From contig NZ_ML769307.1 of NCBI RefSeq assembly GCF_009720385.1, positions 115,510 through 179,509 of the forward strand: a stretch of 64,000 nt of DNA, given 5' to 3'. Positions 3,892 to 47,038 of this stretch are shown piece by piece. This DNA is from Catellatospora vulcania (GTDB taxonomy: Bacteria > Actinomycetota > Actinomycetes > Mycobacteriales > Micromonosporaceae). The notes under the pieces are model-generated. The model had not been told where the DNA came from. It saw nothing but the letters and a program-made list of their open reading frames with translations, and did not search any database. Position numbers and translations under genes: made by a program. Every line of letters starts with the position of its first letter. The first letter of the stretch is position 1.

Positions 3892-6888
3892 ATGGATCTG
3901 CAGTTCCGCATCCTCGGTCCGGTGGCGGTGCAGGCGGGCGGTTCGACGTTGAGCCCGGGTTCGTCGAAGCAGCGCGCCCTGCTGGCAGCCCTGCTGCTGG
4001 AGCCCAACACGGTGGTCCCGCTCGACCGGCTCATCGCCGCGCTCTGGGAGGGTCCGCCGCCCGCGTCGGCGGTCGCGAACCTGCGCACCTACGCGTCCCG
4101 GCTGCGGGCCGCGCTCAGCCAGGCCACCGGCGCGTCCCCGGTGGTCGGCCGGCCCACGGGTTACCTGGTCGAGGTCGCCGACGACGCGCTCGACGCGCTG
4201 GTCTTCGAACGCGAGGTCGACGCCGGCCACAAGGCCGCCGCCGACGGGGCGGCGGCCCGCGCCGTCGAGCACTTCGGCCGGGCGCTCGCACTGTGGACCG
4301 GACCGGCCGCCCAAGACGTGCCCCGTTTCCCGCAGGGGCTCGGCGTCGCTCTCGAAGCGCTCGACGAGCAGCGGCTCAGCACCGTCGAGGCGTGGCTGGA
4401 CGTGCGGCTGCGCCAGGGCGAGACGGCGGCGGTCGTCGCCGAGCTGCGCCGGCTCACCGCGGCCCATCCGCTGCGCGAGCGCCTGTGGACCCTGCTGGTC
4501 AGCGGCCTGTACGCGGCCGGGGACACCGCTGCCGCGCTCGCGGCGTACGGCAAGGCGCGTGAGGTGTTCGCCGACGAGCTCGGCGTGGACCCCGGCCCGG
4601 AGCTGGCGCGGGCGCACCGGGCGGTGCTGCACCGCGAACCCGCCCCGGGCGGCGCCGAGACTGCTCCGTCCCCGGCCGAGGTCACCGGCCGGCCGGGCGG
4701 AGCGGGTCCCGCCGGGTCCGCGGCCGGGGACGTCGGCGTGCCACGCGACCTGCCTCGCGACGTCGTCTTCCTGGTCGGGCGGGATGCCGAACTGGCCCGG
4801 CTGCTGGCGGCCGTACGGGCGGGCGACGGCGCGCAGGTCGTCGCGGTGTACGGGCCGGGCGGGGTCGGCAAGTCTGCGCTGGCCGTCCACGCCGCGCACC
4901 TGCTGGCCCGCGATTTTCCGGCCGGGCAGCTCTATCTCGACCTGCACGGGGCCGCCGTCGGGTTGCCGCCGGCGGAACCCGCCGACATCCTGCGCCGGCT
5001 GCTGCGCGCACTCGGGGTGCCAGGTGACCGGATCCCCGCCGGCGCGCAGGACGCCGCGGACCGGTGCCGTGCCGTGCTTGCCGGACGCCGCATGATCCTG
5101 GTGCTGGACAACGCCGTCGACGAGGCGCAGCTGCGGGCGGTGCTGGCCGCGGTCGGCGGCTGCGCCGTCGTCATCACCGGCAGGCGGCACCTGGCCGCCC
5201 TGGACGAGGTCAGCCACCTGCGGCTGGGCCCGCTCGCCGAGCAGCCCGCGATGGACCTGCTGGGCGCGGTCATCGGCGCCGAGCGTGCGCTGGCCGCGCC
5301 GGAGCGGCTCCGGCAGCTGGTGGGGCTGTGCGACCGCCTGCCGCTGGCGCTGCGGATCGCCGGGGCCCGGCTGGCCGTGCGCCCGGACTGGACCCCGGCC
5401 ACGCTCGTGGCGCAGCTCGCCGACGAGCGGCGGCGGCTGGACACGCTGGCCTTCTCGGATCTGGCCGTGCGCTCCAGCCTGGAGGTCAGCGTCGGCGAGC
5501 TGGCCCGCGCCGCCGACGCGCCCGGCAGGCACGCGGGCCGGCTGCTCCTGCTGCTGGGCGTGCTGCGGCTGACGACCCTGACCGCGTCGCTGGCCGCGGC
5601 CGTGCTGGGCCTGCCCGCGGCCGACGCGGACGAGGCGCTGGGGCGGCTGCTGCAGGCGAGCCTGCTGGAACCCGACGAGTCGGGTCGGCATCGGATGCAC
5701 GACCTGGTCCGGCTGTACGCGGCGGAGCTGGCCGCGGGCGCGGTGCCGGCCGCCGACCGGGCGCAAACCCTGGAACGGGCCCTGGCCTGGTATCTCGCGT
5801 CCAGCCTGCGGGCCCGTCAGCTGATCCGGCCGATGCCCGTCAACGACGACGAGCAGGTCGCCGGGGCGCCCGCGGTGCGGCCGGCGGAACCGGCCGACGC
5901 GGCGGCGGCGCTGGCCTGGTGGACCCACGAGCGGGACAGCATCTTCGCGCTGGCCCGCCAGGCCGTCGAGCACGGTCCCACGGCGACGCGCTACCTGCCG
6001 CGGCTGATGGCGGCGATGTACCACTACCTGGCCACCAACGCCTACTGGGACGAGCTGGCGGAGCTGGCGGAGCTGTCGCTCGGCCCGACGATCGAGGCCG
6101 GCGACCGGCGGGCCGAGGCGGCGTCGCGGGTCGCGCTGGCCGTGGTGCACTCCGAGCGCGGCAGGGGCGCACAGGCGCTGGAGCACCTGTACGAGGTGCT
6201 GCGCATCCGGCGCGAGGACGGCGACGAGCAGGGCATGGCCGGCTGCCTGTCGCACCTGGGCATAGCGCACCTGCGCGCGGGCGACCCGGGGCGGGCGCTG
6301 GCGGCGCTGGAACGCAGCGCGGCGCTGCATGCGCGGCTGGCCATGCCGGTGGGGGAGGGCATCGCCCGCAACGAGTGCGCCGCGGTCCTGTGCCACCTCG
6401 GCCGGCACACCGAGGCGGCGGAGCAGTTCCGGCAGGCGCTCGCGCTGCGCCGCGCGGCCGGTGACCTGATCGGCGAGGCGATCAGCGTGTACGGCCTGGG
6501 AAAGGTGTCGGTGCTGCAGGGCCGGCACGAGGCGGCCGTCGGGCAGCTGACCGACGCGCTGGCCCGCTGCCACGACGCGGGGGTGCGCACCTACACCTGG
6601 CGGGCGCTGCTGTGGCGGGCGGACGCGTTGCACGGCCTGGGCCGCACGGCCGACGCGATCGCCGACGTGGCCGCCGCCGAGCAGGTCTGCGCCGAGCTGC
6701 GTGACAGCTGGGCGCAGGGTGTCGCCGCACTGCTGCTGGGCCTGCTGTGGGCCGAGCTGCGGCAGCCCGGCCCGGCCGCCGGGCACGCCGAGCGCGGTCG
6801 GGCGCTGATGGCCGGGGCCGCCAGCCGGCCCGGTGACGACCTGATCCTGTTGCGCGGCGGGGCCGTCACCGGGTTGTCGGGGTGCTAG
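3892..6888 (+). CDS. AfsR/SARP-type transcriptional activator (winged helix - BTAD - NB-ARC - TPR)
   Basis: The 998-residue protein has the full large-SARP layout. An OmpR-like winged helix lies at about residues 15-95, a bacterial transcriptional activation domain to about 245 (ending ELGVDPGPEL), and an NB-ARC ATPase with the P-loop GPGGVGKS near 321 and LVLDNA as Walker B. TPR-like helices run from about 640 to the end. SARPs bind 11-bp-phased direct repeats next to -10 boxes and switch on biosynthetic genes. Two such repeats occur in this window, upstream of the MauE-like gene and of the CxC peptide gene, so this protein is the natural candidate regulator. Its stop codon overlaps that of the convergent peptide gene (6885-6888). 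Confidence 0.92.
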   Translation: MDLQFRILGPVAVQAGGSTLSPGSSKQRALLAALLLEPNTVVPLDRLIAALWEGPPPASAVANLRTYASRLRAALSQATGASPVVGRPTGYLVEVADDALDALVFEREVDAGHKAAADGAAARAVEHFGRALALWTGPAAQDVPRFPQGLGVALEALDEQRLSTVEAWLDVRLRQGETAAVVAELRRLTAAHPLRERLWTLLVSGLYAAGDTAAALAAYGKAREVFADELGVDPGPELARAHRAVLHREPAPGGAETAPSPAEVTGRPGGAGPAGSAAGDVGVPRDLPRDVVFLVGRDAELARLLAAVRAGDGAQVVAVYGPGGVGKSALAVHAAHLLARDFPAGQLYLDLHGAAVGLPPAEPADILRRLLRALGVPGDRIPAGAQDAADRCRAVLAGRRMILVLDNAVDEAQLRAVLAAVGGCAVVITGRRHLAALDEVSHLRLGPLAEQPAMDLLGAVIGAERALAAPERLRQLVGLCDRLPLALRIAGARLAVRPDWTPATLVAQLADERRRLDTLAFSDLAVRSSLEVSVGELARAADAPGRHAGRLLLLLGVLRLTTLTASLAAAVLGLPAADADEALGRLLQASLLEPDESGRHRMHDLVRLYAAELAAGAVPAADRAQTLERALAWYLASSLRARQLIRPMPVNDDEQVAGAPAVRPAEPADAAAALAWWTHERDSIFALARQAVEHGPTATRYLPRLMAAMYHYLATNAYWDELAELAELSLGPTIEAGDRRAEAASRVALAVVHSERGRGAQALEHLYEVLRIRREDGDEQGMAGCLSHLGIAHLRAGDPGRALAALERSAALHARLAMPVGEGIARNECAAVLCHLGRHTEAAEQFRQALALRRAAGDLIGEAISVYGLGKVSVLQGRHEAAVGQLTDALARCHDAGVRTYTWRALLWRADALHGLGRTADAIADVAAAEQVCAELRDSWAQGVAALLLGLLWAELRQPGPAAGHAERGRALMAGAASRPGDDLILLRGGAVTGLSGC

Positions 6889-7103
6889 CAGGTGCCGACT
6901 CCGGCACGGTACGTGCAGGTGCAGGTGTACGAGCTGCCGCTGCTGTTGCACTTGCAGCGGTAGTAGTAGGGACGGCCGCCGCTGCAGTAGCAGTAGCCGG
7001 CCCACCAGGCGGAGTTCGGGCTGCAGGTCGCCGCAGCCGCTTCGGCCTTGGGCACCACGGCGCCGAGCATGCGTTCGCCCAGCGTTTCGAGCATCCTCTT
7101 CAT
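6885..7103 (-). CDS. Cys-rich precursor peptide with three CxC motifs (candidate secreted disulfide-rich peptide)
   Basis: This 72-residue product matches no family I know. A leader-like segment (residues 1 to about 25, amphipathic MLETLGERMLGAVVPKAEA followed by Ala repeats) precedes a core of about 46 residues. The core has eight Cys: C27, three CxC pairs (38/40, 50/52, 61/63) and the terminal C72. It also holds a WW pair (33-34), a YYY run, and many Gly and Ser. The start is set by a strong GAGGAGGT ribosome site 6 nt upstream; in-frame codons further upstream lack one. The Ala-rich stretch could be the cleavage site for the adjacent S26 peptidase. The exporter, thioredoxin and MauE-like genes next door fit oxidative folding and export of this peptide. 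Function (toxin, signal, metal binding or quinone cofactor carrier) is unknown. Confidence 0.75.
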   Translation of the reverse strand: MKRMLETLGERMLGAVVPKAEAAAATCSPNSAWWAGYCYCSGGRPYYYRCKCNSSGSSYTCTCTYRAGVGTC

Positions 7104-7161
7104 GTTCAACCTCCTCATGTCGGGACTCAGCAAGACGCTAACGTCGCTCGATATACGGCCG

Positions 7162-7179
7162 ATACATGCGCGGTACGCG
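7162..7179 (-). promoter_or_regulatory. SARP-type direct repeat upstream of the CxC peptide gene
   Basis: On the minus strand CGCGTAC and CATGTAT are spaced 11 bp apart, followed by CGGCCGTATATC, which may include the -10. The block ATGTATCGGCCGT is nearly identical to the one before the MauE-like gene. Eleven-bp heptamer phasing is the hallmark of SARP binding sites. Confidence 0.55.
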
Positions 7180-7608
7180 TCACCGGCGCGGTCCGGTGAA
7201 GTGGCGCACCACGACGCCGCGCACGTCGGCCAGGGCGAAGTAGCCGTGCTGGCGGGAATCCCTGCTGGCTTGCTGGTTGTCGCCGAGCAGGACGACGCGG
7301 CCGGCGGGCACGAGCGTGCCCGCCGCTTCGGGCAGCACGGCCGGCGCCGGATCGCCAGGCAGCGCCGCCACCCGCTTGACCATCAGCGGGTCGCCGGTGG
7401 CGCCCGGTTCGCGCGGCCAGCCCGCGACCACCAGGCGCCCGGCGCGCAGGGCAGCTGTGCCCCGCCGCACCAGGACCCGGTCACCGGCCCGCAACGTGGG
7501 CAGCATGCTGGTGCCGTCGACGGTCACCAGCAGGTAGCGCCGCCGCACCAGCAGCAGCGTGGCGGCGGCCCCGGCCAGCACCCCGACGAATACCGCCGCG
7601 ACGATCAC
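7180..7608 (-). CDS. S26-family (type I) signal peptidase, short form
   Basis: The 142-residue protein has one N-terminal membrane helix and the S26 catalytic dyad: Ser34 in DGTSMLPTL and Lys78 in MVKRVAALPGD, followed by the conserved LGDNQQASRDSR box. It is shorter than housekeeping LepB, like the dedicated peptidases found in peptide-export clusters. The GTG start overlaps the stop of the ABC transporter gene (GTGA), so the two are translationally coupled. The likely substrate is the 72-residue peptide encoded immediately downstream; this is inference from position and from the Ala-rich leader end of that peptide. Confidence 0.85.
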   Translation of the reverse strand: MIVAAVFVGVLAGAAATLLLVRRRYLLVTVDGTSMLPTLRAGDRVLVRRGTAALRAGRLVVAGWPREPGATGDPLMVKRVAALPGDPAPAVLPEAAGTLVPAGRVVLLGDNQQASRDSRQHGYFALADVRGVVVRHFTGPRR

Positions 7609-9458
7609 GGCTGCTCCACGAGCGCGTCGTCGGGCTGGTAGCCGTCGGCCTGCAACCGGAACAGCCGGGCGTAGACGCCGCCGGCCGCCAGCAGCTCCCG
7701 GTGCGTTCCCCGCTCGGCCACCCGCCCGTCGGACAGCACGACCAGCGCGTCGGCGTCGCGCAGCGTGCCCAGCCGGTGCGAGACGAGCACGCTGGTACGC
7801 CCGCTGCGGTGCGTGCGCAGCGCCTGGTGCACCTCGGCCTCGGCCTCGGCGTCGAGGCCGGCGCTGGGCTCGTCGAGGATCATCAGGTCGTGCCGGCCGC
7901 GCAGGTACGCCCGCGCCAGCGCGACCCGCTGCCACTGCCCGCCGGACAGCCGCACGCCCGTGGTCACGTCGCCGTCGTCGGACTCGCCGAAGAACAGGCG
8001 GGTCAGCAGGGTGTCGTAGCCGTGCGGCAGCTTGTCGAGCACCGGGTGCACCCCGGCCCGGGTGGCCGCCGCGACCAGCCGGGCCCGGTCGCCGAGTGCG
8101 GTCAGGTCACCGACGGCGACGTTCTCGGCGGCGCTCAGGTCGTACTCCATGTAGTCCTGGAAGACCGCGCCGATGCGGCGGCGCAGTTGCGCGACGTCGA
8201 GCTCGCGCACGTCGACGCCGTCCCACAGCACCGCCCCGCGGGTCGGGTCGTAGAAGCGGCACAGCAGTTTGACGATGGTGGACTTGCCCGAGCCGTTCAG
8301 GCCGACCAGCCCGACCGCGGCCCCGGCCGGCACGTGCAGGTCGACGCCGCGCAGCACCCACGGGTGCTCGTCGCTGTAGCGGAACCACACGTCGCGCAGT
8401 TCGATCCCGTGCCGCAGCGGCGGGACCGGCCGGGCGGCGGCTGCCTGCGGCAGGTCCGGCGGTGCGGTGGTGACCGCCACCAGGTGGTCGAACAGCAGCA
8501 GTTGCTCGTGGCCCTGCGCGAGCGCGTTGACGACGGCGTTGACGCCGCTCTGCACGCCCGCGAGCGCGGCGATGACCATCGCGACGTCGCCCGCGCTGAG
8601 CTGCCCGGCGTACGCCTGCCCCACCGCCCACAGCAGCCCGGCCCCGGCCACCACCGCGTTGAGCAGCGCCAGGCCGCCCTGCACGGCCAGCTCGCGCCGG
8701 TCGGCCCGGCGCAGGGTCCGGTCGGCGGTGCGCCGCTCGCCCAGCATCCGCTCGCGCAGGAAACCCGCCAGCCCGAACAGCCGGATCTCCTTGGCGGCCT
8801 GTTCGCTGTCGAGCAGGCCGCGGTAGAACAGTTCCCGCCGCTCGGCCGGGCCGATCTGCAGGTGCACCCCGGCCCGCCGCCGGGCCAGTGCCAGCTCGCC
8901 GAGCAGCACCGGTCCCGCCGACAGCAGCACCAGCCCGGTCAGCAGGGGGCTGACCGGCCACAGCGACCCGACGAATCCGAGCCCGAGCAGCATCCCGCGG
9001 GCCAGTCCGAGGCCTGCCTCGACCAGCTGCACGGGCATCGCCGCCGCCTGCTGGGCCAGCCGCAGCCGGTCCAGGAACACCGGGTCTTCGAGCCTGGCCA
9101 GCCCGACCTGCCGGCCGACCGCCTGGTAGAGCTCGTCGTCGGCGACCAGGGCCACCTTGCGGCCGACCTGGCCGCGCAGGTAGTCACCGATCCGGGGCAG
9201 CACGGCGGTGACCAGGCCCGCCAGGCCCAGCCCTGCGCCTGCCCACAGCACCTGCGATCGGCTGGCCCCGCCCGCGGCCACGGCATCGAGGACCAGTTTG
9301 AGCAGCCACGCCGTCGCGATCGGAGCCGCGCCTGCGATGAGGGTGACCAGGGCGAAGCCCGCCGCCGCCACCGGCGCGCCGCGGCCGACCAGCCGTAAGC
9401 CGGCCAGCCCGGCCGACCACCTGGCCCGGCCGGCACCGGGCGGCTGACCGTCGGGCAT
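7605..9458 (-). CDS. ABC transporter, fused permease and ATPase (peptide exporter type)
   Basis: The 617-residue half-transporter has an N-terminal membrane domain of about six helices (residues 20-320). The ATPase domain follows with Walker A GLNGSGKST near 386, signature LSGGQWQRVALAR near 501, Walker B LMILDEPSAGLDAEAE, and the H-loop Ser-His. No N-terminal C39 protease domain is present, which fits leader removal by the separate S26 peptidase. The ATG at 9458 is assumed; a GTG at 9464 would overlap the preceding TGA and is equally possible. By context it exports the processed CxC peptide. Confidence 0.88.
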   Translation of the reverse strand: MPDGQPPGAGRARWSAGLAGLRLVGRGAPVAAAGFALVTLIAGAAPIATAWLLKLVLDAVAAGGASRSQVLWAGAGLGLAGLVTAVLPRIGDYLRGQVGRKVALVADDELYQAVGRQVGLARLEDPVFLDRLRLAQQAAAMPVQLVEAGLGLARGMLLGLGFVGSLWPVSPLLTGLVLLSAGPVLLGELALARRRAGVHLQIGPAERRELFYRGLLDSEQAAKEIRLFGLAGFLRERMLGERRTADRTLRRADRRELAVQGGLALLNAVVAGAGLLWAVGQAYAGQLSAGDVAMVIAALAGVQSGVNAVVNALAQGHEQLLLFDHLVAVTTAPPDLPQAAAARPVPPLRHGIELRDVWFRYSDEHPWVLRGVDLHVPAGAAVGLVGLNGSGKSTIVKLLCRFYDPTRGAVLWDGVDVRELDVAQLRRRIGAVFQDYMEYDLSAAENVAVGDLTALGDRARLVAAATRAGVHPVLDKLPHGYDTLLTRLFFGESDDGDVTTGVRLSGGQWQRVALARAYLRGRHDLMILDEPSAGLDAEAEAEVHQALRTHRSGRTSVLVSHRLGTLRDADALVVLSDGRVAERGTHRELLAAGGVYARLFRLQADGYQPDDALVEQP

Positions 9459-9460
9459 GC

Positions 9461-10003
9461 TCACACCAGCGCGGGCGAGGGCAGGTCGTCCAGGGTCGTG
9501 CCACTCGCGACGATCACCCCGTCGGCGCCGACGACGCAGATCGCGGGGAAACCCTGCACGGCGAACGCGCTGCCCAGCGGACCGTGGTCGGGCTCGACCA
9601 CGACCCGGGCCACCGCGCTCAGCGCAGCCACGGACTCGGCCGCATCGTCGGGCTCGGCGGCCACCACCGCGATGACCTGGTCCCGGCCGCCGGGCATGGA
9701 CGCCGCGTAGTCGAGGAACGCCGGCAGCCGCTCCTGGCACGGCACGCACCGGGGGGAGAAGAACGAGACCAGCGTACGGCCGGACAGTTCGTCACGCGCC
9801 ACCGTCGTGCCGTCGGTCGCGACGGCCCGGAACTGCCCGGCGGTCGCCCCGGCCCGCAGCATGATCTGGTCGCCGCCGTGCTCGCGCAGCTCGGTCAGCT
9901 GCGCGGTGTGCTCCCGCAGCCGCTTGACGACCCCGAACGTGAACACGAGGTTGAGCAACCCGATGACGCCGACCAGGGTGACGGCCGTTGCCAGGTAGAC
10001 CAT
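9461..10003 (-). CDS. Membrane-anchored TlpA/MauD-like thioredoxin
   Basis: The 180-residue protein has one N-terminal membrane helix and a thioredoxin fold with FFSPRCVPCQERLP (active-site CVPC at about residues 85-88) and the cis-Pro loop GFPAICVV. Such proteins act outside the membrane as disulfide oxidoreductases. In methylamine-dehydrogenase operons MauD plays this role together with MauE for a Cys-rich subunit; here the Cys-rich partner would be the 72-residue peptide. AGGAG sits 7 nt before the ATG. A small CTATC-CCGC-GATAG hairpin (10014-10027) overlaps the ribosome-site region and could tune translation. Confidence 0.87.
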   Translation of the reverse strand: MVYLATAVTLVGVIGLLNLVFTFGVVKRLREHTAQLTELREHGGDQIMLRAGATAGQFRAVATDGTTVARDELSGRTLVSFFSPRCVPCQERLPAFLDYAASMPGGRDQVIAVVAAEPDDAAESVAALSAVARVVVEPDHGPLGSAFAVQGFPAICVVGADGVIVASGTTLDDLPSPALV

Positions 10004-10043
10004 GCCAGAACTCCTATCCCGCGATAGACGGACGCCCGGCGCC

Positions 10044-10556
10044 CTAGGCGAACAAGTCCGCCAGGTCGTCGAAGCGGATGAGCACCATCGCGGCCACCGC
10101 GGCGGCGGCCACGGCGAGCACGACTCCGGCCGGCTCCACCGCGCCACCGGAACCCGCGGCCGCCGCCCCCGCTGCCGCCAGCACCAGCAGCAACCCGTTG
10201 CGTACCAGGTGGCGGCGGCCCAGCGGGCTTCCTTCGGCGCCGAAGCAGCGGCAGACCACGGTGCGCCGGTGCCGCAGCACCGCCGTGATCGCGACGCAGA
10301 ACGCGGCCAGCAGCGCAGCCGCGAGCAGGTAGCCGAGCAGCTCCGTGGGCGGCCAGGCCAGCAGGGCCGGCACTGACAGCTCCACGGCCAGCACCGTCAT
10401 CGCGGCCGGGGCAACTGCCCATCCGGCGAGCAGCCCGACGGCGCGCACCGATTCGGCGAACTCGCGCCGCCGGTCGCGGTTGCGCAGCTTGCCGGTCGCG
10501 GCGGCCAGGAACACGATCCCCAGCAGGCACCGCACCGCGATGTCGAGGTGCTCCAC
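10044..10556 (-). CDS. MauE/DoxX-like redox-associated membrane protein
   Basis: The 170-residue integral membrane protein has four to five helices and the MauE signature CRCFG at about residues 101-105, between helices 3 and 4. MauE-type proteins are thought to pass oxidising equivalents across the membrane to a MauD-like thioredoxin; that partner is encoded 40 bp downstream. The GTG start at 10556 has no ribosome site, but a -10-like TATGCT (minus strand, 10568-10563) lies about 7 nt upstream, so the mRNA may be leaderless. This is the first gene of the five-gene run ending with the peptide gene. Confidence 0.87.
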   Translation of the reverse strand: MEHLDIAVRCLLGIVFLAAATGKLRNRDRRREFAESVRAVGLLAGWAVAPAAMTVLAVELSVPALLAWPPTELLGYLLAAALLAAFCVAITAVLRHRRTVVCRCFGAEGSPLGRRHLVRNGLLLVLAAAGAAAAGSGGAVEPAGVVLAVAAAAVAAMVLIRFDDLADLFA

Positions 10557-10562
10557 CGGGCC

Positions 10563-10596
10563 AGCATAGGAACGGCCGATACACGATCCATACACG
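10563..10596 (-). promoter_or_regulatory. Promoter of the MauE-like operon with SARP-type direct repeat
   Basis: On the minus strand two identical CGTGTAT heptamers (10596-10590 and 10585-10579) are exactly 11 bp apart. They are followed after 10 bp by TATGCT (10568-10563). This is the geometry of SARP-activated promoters, where the repeats replace the -35 box. Initiation would fall at or next to the GTG start. Confidence 0.6.
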
Positions 10597-10643: not shown

Positions 10644-11708
10644 TCAGCTGGGGACGGTGGCGCGCAGCGCGGCTATCGAGGCGAGCAGTTCCTCGCGCCG
10701 ACCGAGCGGCATCATCCAGTCCGGCAGGCCGACCTGGTATGCGGGGAGGTAGGCAGCGCCGTCGGCCAGGCGTACGCGGGCGCGCAGGTGCTGCTCGATC
10801 GCGTCCAGATGCGCGGTCCCGTACGCCCAGAGGCGGCCACCGGCGCAGGGCTGTTGCAGCCACAGCGGCAGGCGGAACACCGGATCGTGGACGGGACTGC
10901 CGTCCCAGCGGTTGCCCTGCCTGAACTCCGGCCGGCGCGTCGCGGTGAACGGGCACTGCGCGCAGGTCACCCGCCACACCTGGCCGGCCGGTCCGGGTAC
11001 GGGGCAGACGGCCGCCGCCGGGCCGTCGCACCGGGGGCAGCGCACCAGGGTCGGCACGTGTCCGTGGTCGACCTGGGACAGGATCGGCGCGGCGCGTTCC
11101 GTCGGCATCTCGGCCAGTCCCTGCTGCAGCAGGTAGTCGCGCCACTGGCTCGGCTTCGGCTCCGGCATGGCCCGTCTGCCGACCACCCACGCCAGGTAGC
11201 CGGCGCGCAGGCGTACCCCCTCGTCGGCGTGCTCGGCCAGTTCCCGCAGCCGGTCGCGCAGCGGGTCGTCGGCCAGTACCCGCGCCAGCCGGGCATAGCG
11301 CTCGTCGCCGAGCCGGTGCGGCCGGGCCACCACCGACAGGATCAGGTCGGTCAGCACCGTCCGGACCCAGGCCGGCAGCTCGTCCGCGCGGTGGTGGAAG
11401 GTCCGCAGCAGGCTCTTCTTCGTGGTCCAGGACTTGGCGTGCCAGGCCCATTCGTGCGGGAACCGCACCTCCCAGTCCAGGTAGAGCAGGCGGTAGCGCA
11501 CGGCGCGCGGCATCCGCGGGCGCGACTCGGTCCACAGGCCGTCGGGCAGCAGCCGGCGGCTCGCGTGTTCGTGCTGCTGCCGGGTGGTGGCGCAGGCACG
11601 AGCCAGGCGCAGCTCGTCGAGCCGCAGGTGGGCGTCGTCGCGCCGGGCGGGGTCCTCGCTGATCAGGTCCCAGGCCCAGCTGAACCGCTCGTCCCAGTCG
11701 TCGGCCAT
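10644..11708 (-). CDS. Uncharacterised protein with a zinc-ribbon-like segment
   Basis: I do not recognise the family of this 354-residue soluble protein. The N-terminal two thirds look helical and rich in Trp, Arg and Glu (for example WTTKKSLLRTF). Two Cys pairs, CPRCDG and CAQCPF about 30 residues apart, resemble a zinc ribbon. The C-terminus is rich in aromatic residues. It ends 87 bp before the MauE-like gene start on the same strand, but the SARP-type promoter lies between them, so it is probably a separate unit. A role in the peptide system cannot be excluded. Confidence 0.7.
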   Translation of the reverse strand: MADDWDERFSWAWDLISEDPARRDDAHLRLDELRLARACATTRQQHEHASRRLLPDGLWTESRPRMPRAVRYRLLYLDWEVRFPHEWAWHAKSWTTKKSLLRTFHHRADELPAWVRTVLTDLILSVVARPHRLGDERYARLARVLADDPLRDRLRELAEHADEGVRLRAGYLAWVVGRRAMPEPKPSQWRDYLLQQGLAEMPTERAAPILSQVDHGHVPTLVRCPRCDGPAAAVCPVPGPAGQVWRVTCAQCPFTATRRPEFRQGNRWDGSPVHDPVFRLPLWLQQPCAGGRLWAYGTAHLDAIEQHLRARVRLADGAAYLPAYQVGLPDWMMPLGRREELLASIAALRATVPS

Positions 11709-12294: not shown

Positions 12295-12805
12295 CGACGA
12301 GTACGGCCGTGACCGTGTCGGAGACGCTCGGGTTGTAGAACTCCTCGATACCCGCGATCCACTCGTCGCGGTCGACGCTGCCGTTGCCGTCCCGGTCGAA
12401 CGAGGCGAACAGTTGGCGCACCTTGTCCGGGGCGAATCCCGCTGCCTCCATGACGGGCTGGAACTCGGTGAGGCTGATCTGCCCGTCGTCGTCGCGGTCG
12501 CAGATGTCGGCCAGCGACTGCGCGTAGGGGAGTCCGTTGCGGTCGAACCAGCCGGCGGCCGACACGGTGGCGGCGTAGGCGGCCAGGTCGATCCGGTCGG
12601 CGGCGTTCGTCAGCTGCAGGCTCTGCCAGTACTGGGCGTGCGCGGCGCGCAGGGCGTCGGCCTTGGGGTCGGTCTCCGCGGCGCCGACCGCCTGGATGAT
12701 CCGGTCGGCCAGCGCGATGAAGTCCTCCTCTTCGAGGACTCCGTTGCCGTCGGCGTCGAAGAGGTTGAAGCGCAGACGGATGCGGTCCGAGATGTTGGTG
12801 TCCAT
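12287..12805 (-). CDS. Calerythrin-like EF-hand calcium-binding protein
   Basis: The 172-residue acidic cytosolic protein has three canonical EF-hand loops: DADGNGVLEEED, DRDDDGQISLTE and DRDGNGSVDRDE. A degenerate fourth site (WFDRNGLP region) lies between the first and second. Three working hands in about 170-190 residues is the calerythrin pattern known from actinobacteria, proteins thought to buffer or sense calcium. The ATG at 12805 is preceded by a G-rich ribosome site; an upstream in-frame start at 12841 is less likely. It overlaps the cupin gene. Confidence 0.9.
   Translation of the reverse strand: MDTNISDRIRLRFNLFDADGNGVLEEEDFIALADRIIQAVGAAETDPKADALRAAHAQYWQSLQLTNAADRIDLAAYAATVSAAGWFDRNGLPYAQSLADICDRDDDGQISLTEFQPVMEAAGFAPDKVRQLFASFDRDGNGSVDRDEWIAGIEEFYNPSVSDTVTAVLVDA

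Positions 12806-42332: not shown

Positions 42333-47038
<4,706 letters not shown>

Follow-up and report, generated by a model that had tools for sequence, protein, structure and literature searches.

A putative SARP-controlled maturation and export system for disulfide-rich ribosomal peptides in Catellatospora vulcania and related actinobacteria

Introduction

In methylamine utilisation, MauE and the membrane-anchored, thioredoxin-like protein MauD act for a cysteine-rich exported polypeptide. Sublancin and other glycocin systems comprise a disulfide peptide, the thiol oxidoreductases BdbA and BdbB, an ABC exporter and a glycosyltransferase, with a double-glycine leader and a C39 peptidase. 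In the prochlorosins, one machine with a lanthionine synthetase serves many scattered precursors, which have a conserved leader and a hypervariable core. Here, we describe a gene cluster of Catellatospora vulcania (family Micromonosporaceae) in which a small cysteine-rich precursor peptide stands beside genes for an S26 peptidase, an ABC exporter, a TlpA-like protein, a MauE-like protein and a Streptomyces antibiotic regulatory protein (SARP). The cluster lies in a stretch of 64,000 nucleotides (positions 115,510 to 179,509 of contig NZ_ML769307.1, assembly GCF_009720385.1), hereafter called the window.

In the passages concerned, the decRiPPter study (PMC7794033, 2020) describes three candidate Streptomyces families of ribosomally synthesised and post-translationally modified peptides (RiPPs) with mauE, one of them also with mauD. 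Each precursor contains at least eight Cys, and a role in RiPP modification is suggested, as predictions only. This was the only work pairing MauE with a RiPP that was found, and no characterised product of the system was met in a literature search of limited breadth. The window shows the combination given in these passages, a mauE homologue accompanied by a precursor that has eight Cys or more.

An earlier note, made from the DNA letters of the window, had proposed the cluster as a new ribosomal-peptide system. Based on the sequence comparisons reported below, we propose that its genes, controlled by the SARP, serve to mature and export ribosomal disulfide-rich peptides, with a probability of roughly three in four.

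Genes of the locus

Four genes are closely spaced on the minus strand. They code for a MauE-like membrane protein with a CRCFG motif (10044..10556, GTG start at 10556; Pfam MauE, 8.6e-26), a TlpA/redoxin-like thiol-disulfide protein with an N-terminal membrane anchor and the active site FFSPRCVPC (9461..10003; Pfam Redoxin and AhpC-TSA, 3e-6 and 4e-6), an MsbA/ABCB-type ABC exporter (7605..9458, start codon assigned by eye; ABC_tran, 3.5e-27) and a short, signal-peptidase-like S26 peptidase with Ser in GTSMLP and Lys in VKRV (7180..7608; Peptidase_S26, 5.5e-19; TIGR02227 above cut-off), whose start overlaps the stop of the ABC gene. The precursor gene follows next on the same strand with a separate promoter (6885..7103; ATG start, GGAGG 6 nt upstream). 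It encodes 72 amino acids, of which residues 1-24 form a leader ending in AEAAA and residues 25-72 a core with eight Cys. Convergent to it on the plus strand is the gene of an AfsR-like SARP regulator with BTAD, NB-ARC and TPR domains (3892..6888; BTAD, 1.4e-37; NCBIfam AfsR model, 4.9e-143, under cut-off).

Reading of the sequence and the Pfam domain matches confirmed the earlier description of five minus-strand genes, from MauE to the 72-residue precursor, together with a SARP. The precursor residues are also as described, with Cys at 27, 38, 40, 50, 52, 61, 63 and 72, six of them in three CxC pairs (38/40, 50/52, 61/63), and a Trp pair at 33/34. Between the precursor gene and its nearest homologue (L070), 17 codon changes are synonymous and 5 non-synonymous, which, together with the recurring gene set, argues that the open reading frame (ORF) is more than a chance one.

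Ten window proteins were scanned with Pfam. As the earlier note had stated, no cyclase, dehydratase or radical enzyme was found among them. The radical SAM and YcaO enzymes that, like dehydratases and cyclases, mark lanthipeptides, sactipeptides and azole or thiopeptides are thus not seen there, nor is any MauA/MauB, MauG, dehydrogenase or glycosyltransferase. The ABC exporter has no C39 peptidase domain among its Pfam matches, and nothing in Rfam matched between positions 6500 and 11000. The models matched by the TlpA-like protein at E 0.1 included ResA/StoA/TlpA and none named MauD; among the best 80 of 195 relatives, the closest from a named species is that of Catellatospora methionotrophica (92%). 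TlpA alignments covered 30 (A2) and 9 (A3) of 62 rows, and both Cys of the CxxC motif are invariant in the 30 rows of A2. The motif C-x-C-[FYWL]-G is present in all 102 MauE relatives in the fetched loci (E ≤ 1e-8).

Distribution and gene neighbourhoods

A search of 200 genomes of the host's family with the peptide and TlpA yielded 60 neighbourhoods, most of which gave a leader-like peptide with an iterative profile; the tally covers 60 of 62 loci, L128 and L129 having no TlpA match. A second set comprises 80 loci of named actinobacteria found via TlpA, the best 80 of 195 relatives. The two sets overlap (e.g. L070/L188, L082/L196), so their tallies are not independent. A related precursor lies no more than 6.5 kb from TlpA in 58/60 family loci and 77/80 named loci; over the same distance, the ABC exporter was found in 57/60 and 77/80, S26 in 53/60 and 70/80, SARP in 45/60 and 42/80, and MauE in 38/60 and 63/80. 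This co-occurrence upholds the claim that peptidase, exporter, TlpA and MauE belong with the Cys-rich precursor, and conservation of the peptide beside these genes, the absence of which the earlier note had named as refuting, was observed.

The named loci with similar arrangements belong to Streptomyces, Nonomuraea, Microbispora, Planomonospora, Thermobifida and Micromonospora, and also to Dactylosporangium, Kibdelosporangium, Pseudonocardia, Nocardia and Amycolatopsis. With a profile built from 51 precursors (A1), matches at E ≤ 1e-4 extend to 121 of 354 family genomes and 27 of 44 genera. Related gene sets thus appear to be widespread, occurring in many soil actinobacteria. In a phylum-wide sample, precursor matches were obtained in 2/396 genomes, one of them the strain's own; this is a weak negative result because scoring was limited to 15 candidates per genome.

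At the genome level, 63 of the 200 genomes contain both precursor and TlpA, nine the precursor only, eight TlpA only and 120 neither (odds ratio 105, p 7e-33, on the assumption that all 200 lie among the 354 of the profile search). Inspection of four 'precursor only' genomes, out of nine, located TlpA, ABC, S26 and MauE close to the precursor in every case, the TlpA scoring more weakly.

When ORFs of at least 70 aa were clustered, any additional gene family was confined to 19 or fewer of the 142 loci, the clusters not having been annotated by profile one by one. The extra clusters include an apparent reverse strand of S26 (17 loci) and a short ABC ATPase (19 loci). Since no further family recurs more widely, the module may be complete with six parts, namely precursor, S26, ABC, TlpA, MauE and SARP.

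One locus, L125 (G097:C31), consists of TlpA, MauE and S26 without a recognised ABC, beside a small Cys-containing ORF. The ORF has a deviating leader, KLVQKVLPKAQGKA (E 1.5), and is perhaps a divergent branch.

Leader and core of the precursors

For the profile, 65 precursor rows were listed, of which 51 were chosen by hand to make up alignment A1, leaving aside weak rows and near-duplicates; some start sites may be wrongly placed. The precursors have a common leader of 24 aa closing with P-x3-AxA, with a consensus of about M-x-R-x-L-x-x-L-G-D-R-L-L-x-x-F/V-V-P-K-x-x-A-x-A. In 74 non-redundant leaders, the most conserved residues are A24 (100%), P18 and A22 (98% each), R11 (86%), L13 (77%) and D10 (75%). 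D10 and R11 place charged residues in the middle of the leader, as judged by eye against the n-h-c layout of Sec signal peptides with their hydrophobic core. The leader ends in AxA and not in the double glycine of class II bacteriocin leaders. With the AxA ending at residue 24, residues 25-72 (48 aa) are a likelier mature core of the window precursor than the 46 aa of the earlier estimate. A conserved leader, a variable core and a genetically encoded precursor are general features of RiPPs, and all three are found here.

Neither Pfam nor NCBIfam gave convincing matches to the 51 precursors (two chance-like matches in each, best E 0.027); the precursor profile found no match among PDB sequences, and the window precursor none in a plasmid collection. 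Cys makes up 18.6% of the core residues, His 1.7% and Met 0.5%. Apart from Cys, the cores are hypervariable by sequence, the non-Cys identity between members being 0.254 vs 0.236 for shuffled cores. At least three CxC pairs occur in 10/180 unique precursors, and WW shortly before CYC/CFC in 5/180 (WW anywhere in 15/180). The three-CxC layout was hence rejected as a hallmark of the family, and the Trp-containing layout put forward with it did not hold up either. The same counts bear on the idea of a maturation like that of methylamine dehydrogenase, with Trp modification. MauE, its thioredoxin-like partner and the adjacent Trp 33/34 would suit a Trp-derived cofactor, which was rejected given the 5/180 precursors with the WW motif. 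For this reason the analogy to the Trp-modified dehydrogenase subunit falls away; with no further gene family recurring widely, such a maturation is extremely improbable.

The number of Cys is even in 113/120 non-redundant cores and in 159/180 unique precursors, half being expected by chance. The larger set derives from all 207 rows; for the smaller one, 54 of the 207 rows in which AxA could not be placed were dropped before core-length and identity filters were applied. Genome G007, which is rich in precursors, provides a further count. A leader-only model built without this genome gave 40 matches in its fetched regions; among the tails no longer than 80 aa, 38 of 39 have an even number of Cys. 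As the profile used to pick these regions covers the core, their Cys richness is not independent evidence; the parity is. Even Cys numbers are strong evidence for disulfides and the main evidence for them in this predicted family. Together with the absence of any further family in more than 19/142 loci, they support the earlier expectation that oxidative folding is the main modification. We infer the disulfide pattern and the function of the peptides from sequence.

AlphaFold2 predicts the core of the window precursor (residues 31-72) with a predicted local distance difference test (pLDDT) score of about 90 and the leader with low confidence. The predicted core consists of three beta strands (32-41, 44-52 and 59-65) that bear the CxC pairs. 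Foldseek found nothing in the PDB at E ≤ 0.001. A second core type (L106) folds only moderately (mean pLDDT 66.6), also with strands. CxC pairs resemble metal ligands and are brought together by the predicted strands. The peptide might therefore bind zinc, iron or copper, TlpA and MauE keeping its thiols reduced until loading; the membrane charge bias described below, which would put the redox sites of TlpA, S26 and the MauE loop in the reducing cytoplasm, would agree with this. However, Cys spacing varies freely across the family while evenness stays, few precursors have three CxC pairs, His and Met are scarce in the cores and no further gene family recurs widely. Metal binding is therefore considered unlikely.

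Genomes with many precursors and the second cluster

At E ≤ 0.01, the precursor profile has 59 matches in genome G007, 35 in G026, 30 in G083, 24 in G075, 17 in G004 and 10 in G066. Few copies of the machine genes were found in five of these genomes. For G007, G026, G083, G004 and G066, respectively, TlpA was found 2 (one strong), 3, 2, 1 and 1 times at E ≤ 1e-10, ABC 1, 3, 2, 4 and 2 times at E ≤ 1e-60 and 1, 2, 1, 1 and 1 times below 1e-130, and MauE 1, 1, 2, 1 and 1 times at E ≤ 1e-5. MauE was present in 6/6 genomes tested, in G007 and G026 apart from TlpA and ABC. G075 differs, with 15 TlpA copies at E ≤ 1e-15.

In the 7.2-Mb genome G007, many unlinked precursors face few machine genes, which are spread over at least three contigs. 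MauE lies 135 kb from ABC and S26 on contig 4, TlpA stands with a SARP on contig 1, and S26, which was not counted genome-wide, was seen twice, adjoining ABC on contig 4 and beside a precursor on contig 8. From the 39 precursor regions and the TlpA region fetched (L268-L307), 51 precursor rows were read at E ≤ 0.01. Their leaders fit and their cores differ (median nearest-neighbour identity 0.54, 4/37 above 0.6). In G004 and G066, the MauE-TlpA-ABC-S26 locus shows no precursor in the 17 kb fetched, so the precursors of these genomes are presumably served in trans. Multi-precursor genomes of this scattered kind, in which each machine gene found has one or two copies, are new here. They would fit a RiPP-like class with a single oxidation and export machine (S26, ABC, TlpA, MauE) that acts in trans on a genome-wide library of hypervariable disulfide peptides, the leader acting as an address label and the core being free to evolve while its Cys stay paired. 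We rate this wider proposal a little better than even.

The wider proposal also takes in Rhizohabitans arisaemae (L229), where seven precursor matches, four of which were read, adjoin the machine genes in one locus.

The genome of C. vulcania itself contains a paralogous cluster, L009 (G000:C2:756000-775000), with precursor, S26, SARP, ABC, TlpA and a second SARP. No MauE was found in this cluster. As the genome yielded a single MauE (E ≤ 1e-5), this copy may serve both clusters.

Elsewhere in the window, a 354-aa protein is encoded upstream of MauE (10644-11708, minus strand; no Pfam or NCBIfam match at E 0.1), and an AhpC-TSA/redoxin-like match lies at 43707-43970 on the minus strand (genome place C13:159216). 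EF-hand-like calcium-binding repeats were spotted by eye at 12300-12500, in a minus-strand reading beside a cupin gene.

Regulation

SARP targets have two heptamers 11 bp apart, 8 bp ahead of the -10 element. Motif matches with the same layout, ending in a -10-like hexamer, were found at two places on the minus strand of the window. The candidate promoter of the precursor reads TGTATCG-4-TATATCG-8-TAGCGT (7135..7166), that of MauE-TlpA-ABC-S26 TGTATGG-4-TGTATCG-8-TATGCT (10563..10594). The latter transcript is probably leaderless, given the gap of 6 nt to the GTG at 10556. The sequence TGTATCGGCCGT, upstream of both the precursor and MauE, occurs twice in the 64 kb vs 0.02 expected occurrences.

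In the 8.8-Mb genome, the pattern TGTA-N7-TRTA-N11-TANNNT is present at five places and its reversed control at none. Three of the five are those of the precursor, of MauE and of a site just upstream of TlpA in the L009 cluster; around the other two, L367 and L368 (G000:C7, C11), none of the system's genes lies in the 14 kb fetched. Visual inspection of the window and of the S26 gene of L009 first brought out the 11-bp repeat motif, which was then scored; it was made without the L009 TlpA promoter and without relatives such as L109 and L238. Nine of 190 precursor upstream regions, the window's included, score at least 11 of 13, compared to an average of 0.0 for shuffles. With two SARP-type promoters in the window and a third in the paralogous cluster, the claim that the system is under a SARP has gained support, SARP binding itself being predicted.

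Proposed pathway

In the proposed maturation and export line, the SARP would activate two promoters, that of the precursor and that of MauE-TlpA-ABC-S26. The 24-residue leader would address the precursor to the machine, S26 would cleave after A-x-A, and TlpA would oxidise the paired Cys with its CxxC. MauE, with its CxCFG motif, would recharge TlpA, presumably handing electrons to the respiratory chain, and the ABC exporter would release a folded peptide of about 48 residues. We infer each enzymatic step, the step order and the membrane side; the product would be a competition or signalling peptide.

Several observations weigh against this proposal. The Cys count is odd in 21/180 unique precursors, of which some may be frame or start errors and others look genuine (e.g. 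L099, L117). High motif scores are restricted to 9/190 precursor upstream regions; the remaining regions may use other motifs. Five TlpA loci lack a recognised precursor (L122, L125, L190, L210, L214), and in the seven of eight 'TlpA only' genomes opened (L122, L125, L362-L366) none was recognised around TlpA. Unlike typical bacteriocin loci, the loci show no recurring candidate immunity gene, which as an ORF below 70 aa or a fast-evolving gene would escape the clustering. MauE is absent near TlpA in 22/60 family loci, as would be expected if the redox pair served something else, e.g. the exporter or cytochromes, and ABC and S26 alone acted on the peptide. Such a division is decidedly unlikely in view of the presence of MauE in all six genomes tested and the odds ratio of 105 linking TlpA to the precursor.

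The last point concerns membrane topology. Charges were counted in the rows with recognisable motif and anchor (127/141 for TlpA, 121/124 for S26); where no Met was near, just three residues before the anchor were used. Lys and Arg (K/R) after the anchor exceed those before it in 125/127 TlpA rows (reverse in 0) and in 99/121 S26 rows (reverse in 13). RLR after the TlpA anchor is invariant in the 30 rows of A2, and the CxCFG motif of MauE lies between K/R-rich flanks. In the strain's own genome, K/R precede the anchor in three housekeeping signal peptidases and in a ResA-like protein. The charge bias suggests that the active sites of TlpA and S26 are in the cytoplasm, at odds with oxidation outside; taken at face value, it would mean that oxidation and cleavage might precede export. 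Peptides of the same family would then be cleaved and disulfide-bonded on the cytoplasmic side of the membrane before the finished product leaves through the ABC exporter. However, the positive-inside rule is merely statistical and was applied to few residues before the anchor, the homology of S26 to signal peptidases favours an outside active site, and stable cytoplasmic disulfides are unusual. We regard maturation at the cytoplasmic face as possible, at well below even odds.

Comparison with known systems

If the proposal is true, actinobacteria have a widespread, largely unannotated route to disulfide-rich peptides of many kinds that dispenses with the usual RiPP enzymes. The simple AxA leader rule would let precursors be found and cores be swapped, MauE, a family of unclear function, would gain a testable substrate, and genome miners would gain a profile absent from Pfam, NCBIfam and PDB sequences. 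The multi-precursor genomes pose the question why dozens of different disulfide peptides should be encoded per cell.

Unlike the methylamine utilisation cluster, the window shows no dehydrogenase or MauG among the proteins scanned. The system resembles those of sublancin and the glycocins in its disulfide peptide (here predicted), dedicated thiol oxidoreductases and ABC exporter, but AxA and S26 replace the double glycine and C39, MauE replaces BdbB, and the window scan found no glycosyltransferase. With the prochlorosins it shares few machine genes and many scattered precursors whose leader is conserved and whose core is hypervariable; it differs in having no lanthionine synthetase, and its crosslinks would be disulfides. 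Actifensins, defensin-like bacteriocins of Actinomyces, are likewise small disulfide-rich actinobacterial peptides, likened here by description only.

Closest are the decRiPPter families with mauE and mauD, whose small precursors with at least eight Cys are likewise accompanied by a transporter, a peptidase and a regulator (PMC7794033). As presented in that source, those families are from Streptomyces only, and its passages on them describe no shared leader, role of S26 or TlpA, Cys parity, SARP motif or multi-precursor genomes. Since these candidates precede the present one, the novelty claimed by the earlier note has to be qualified. Taken together, the present result probably unites and extends the decRiPPter-type candidates, to which it is likened by description only, into one defined and widespread system.

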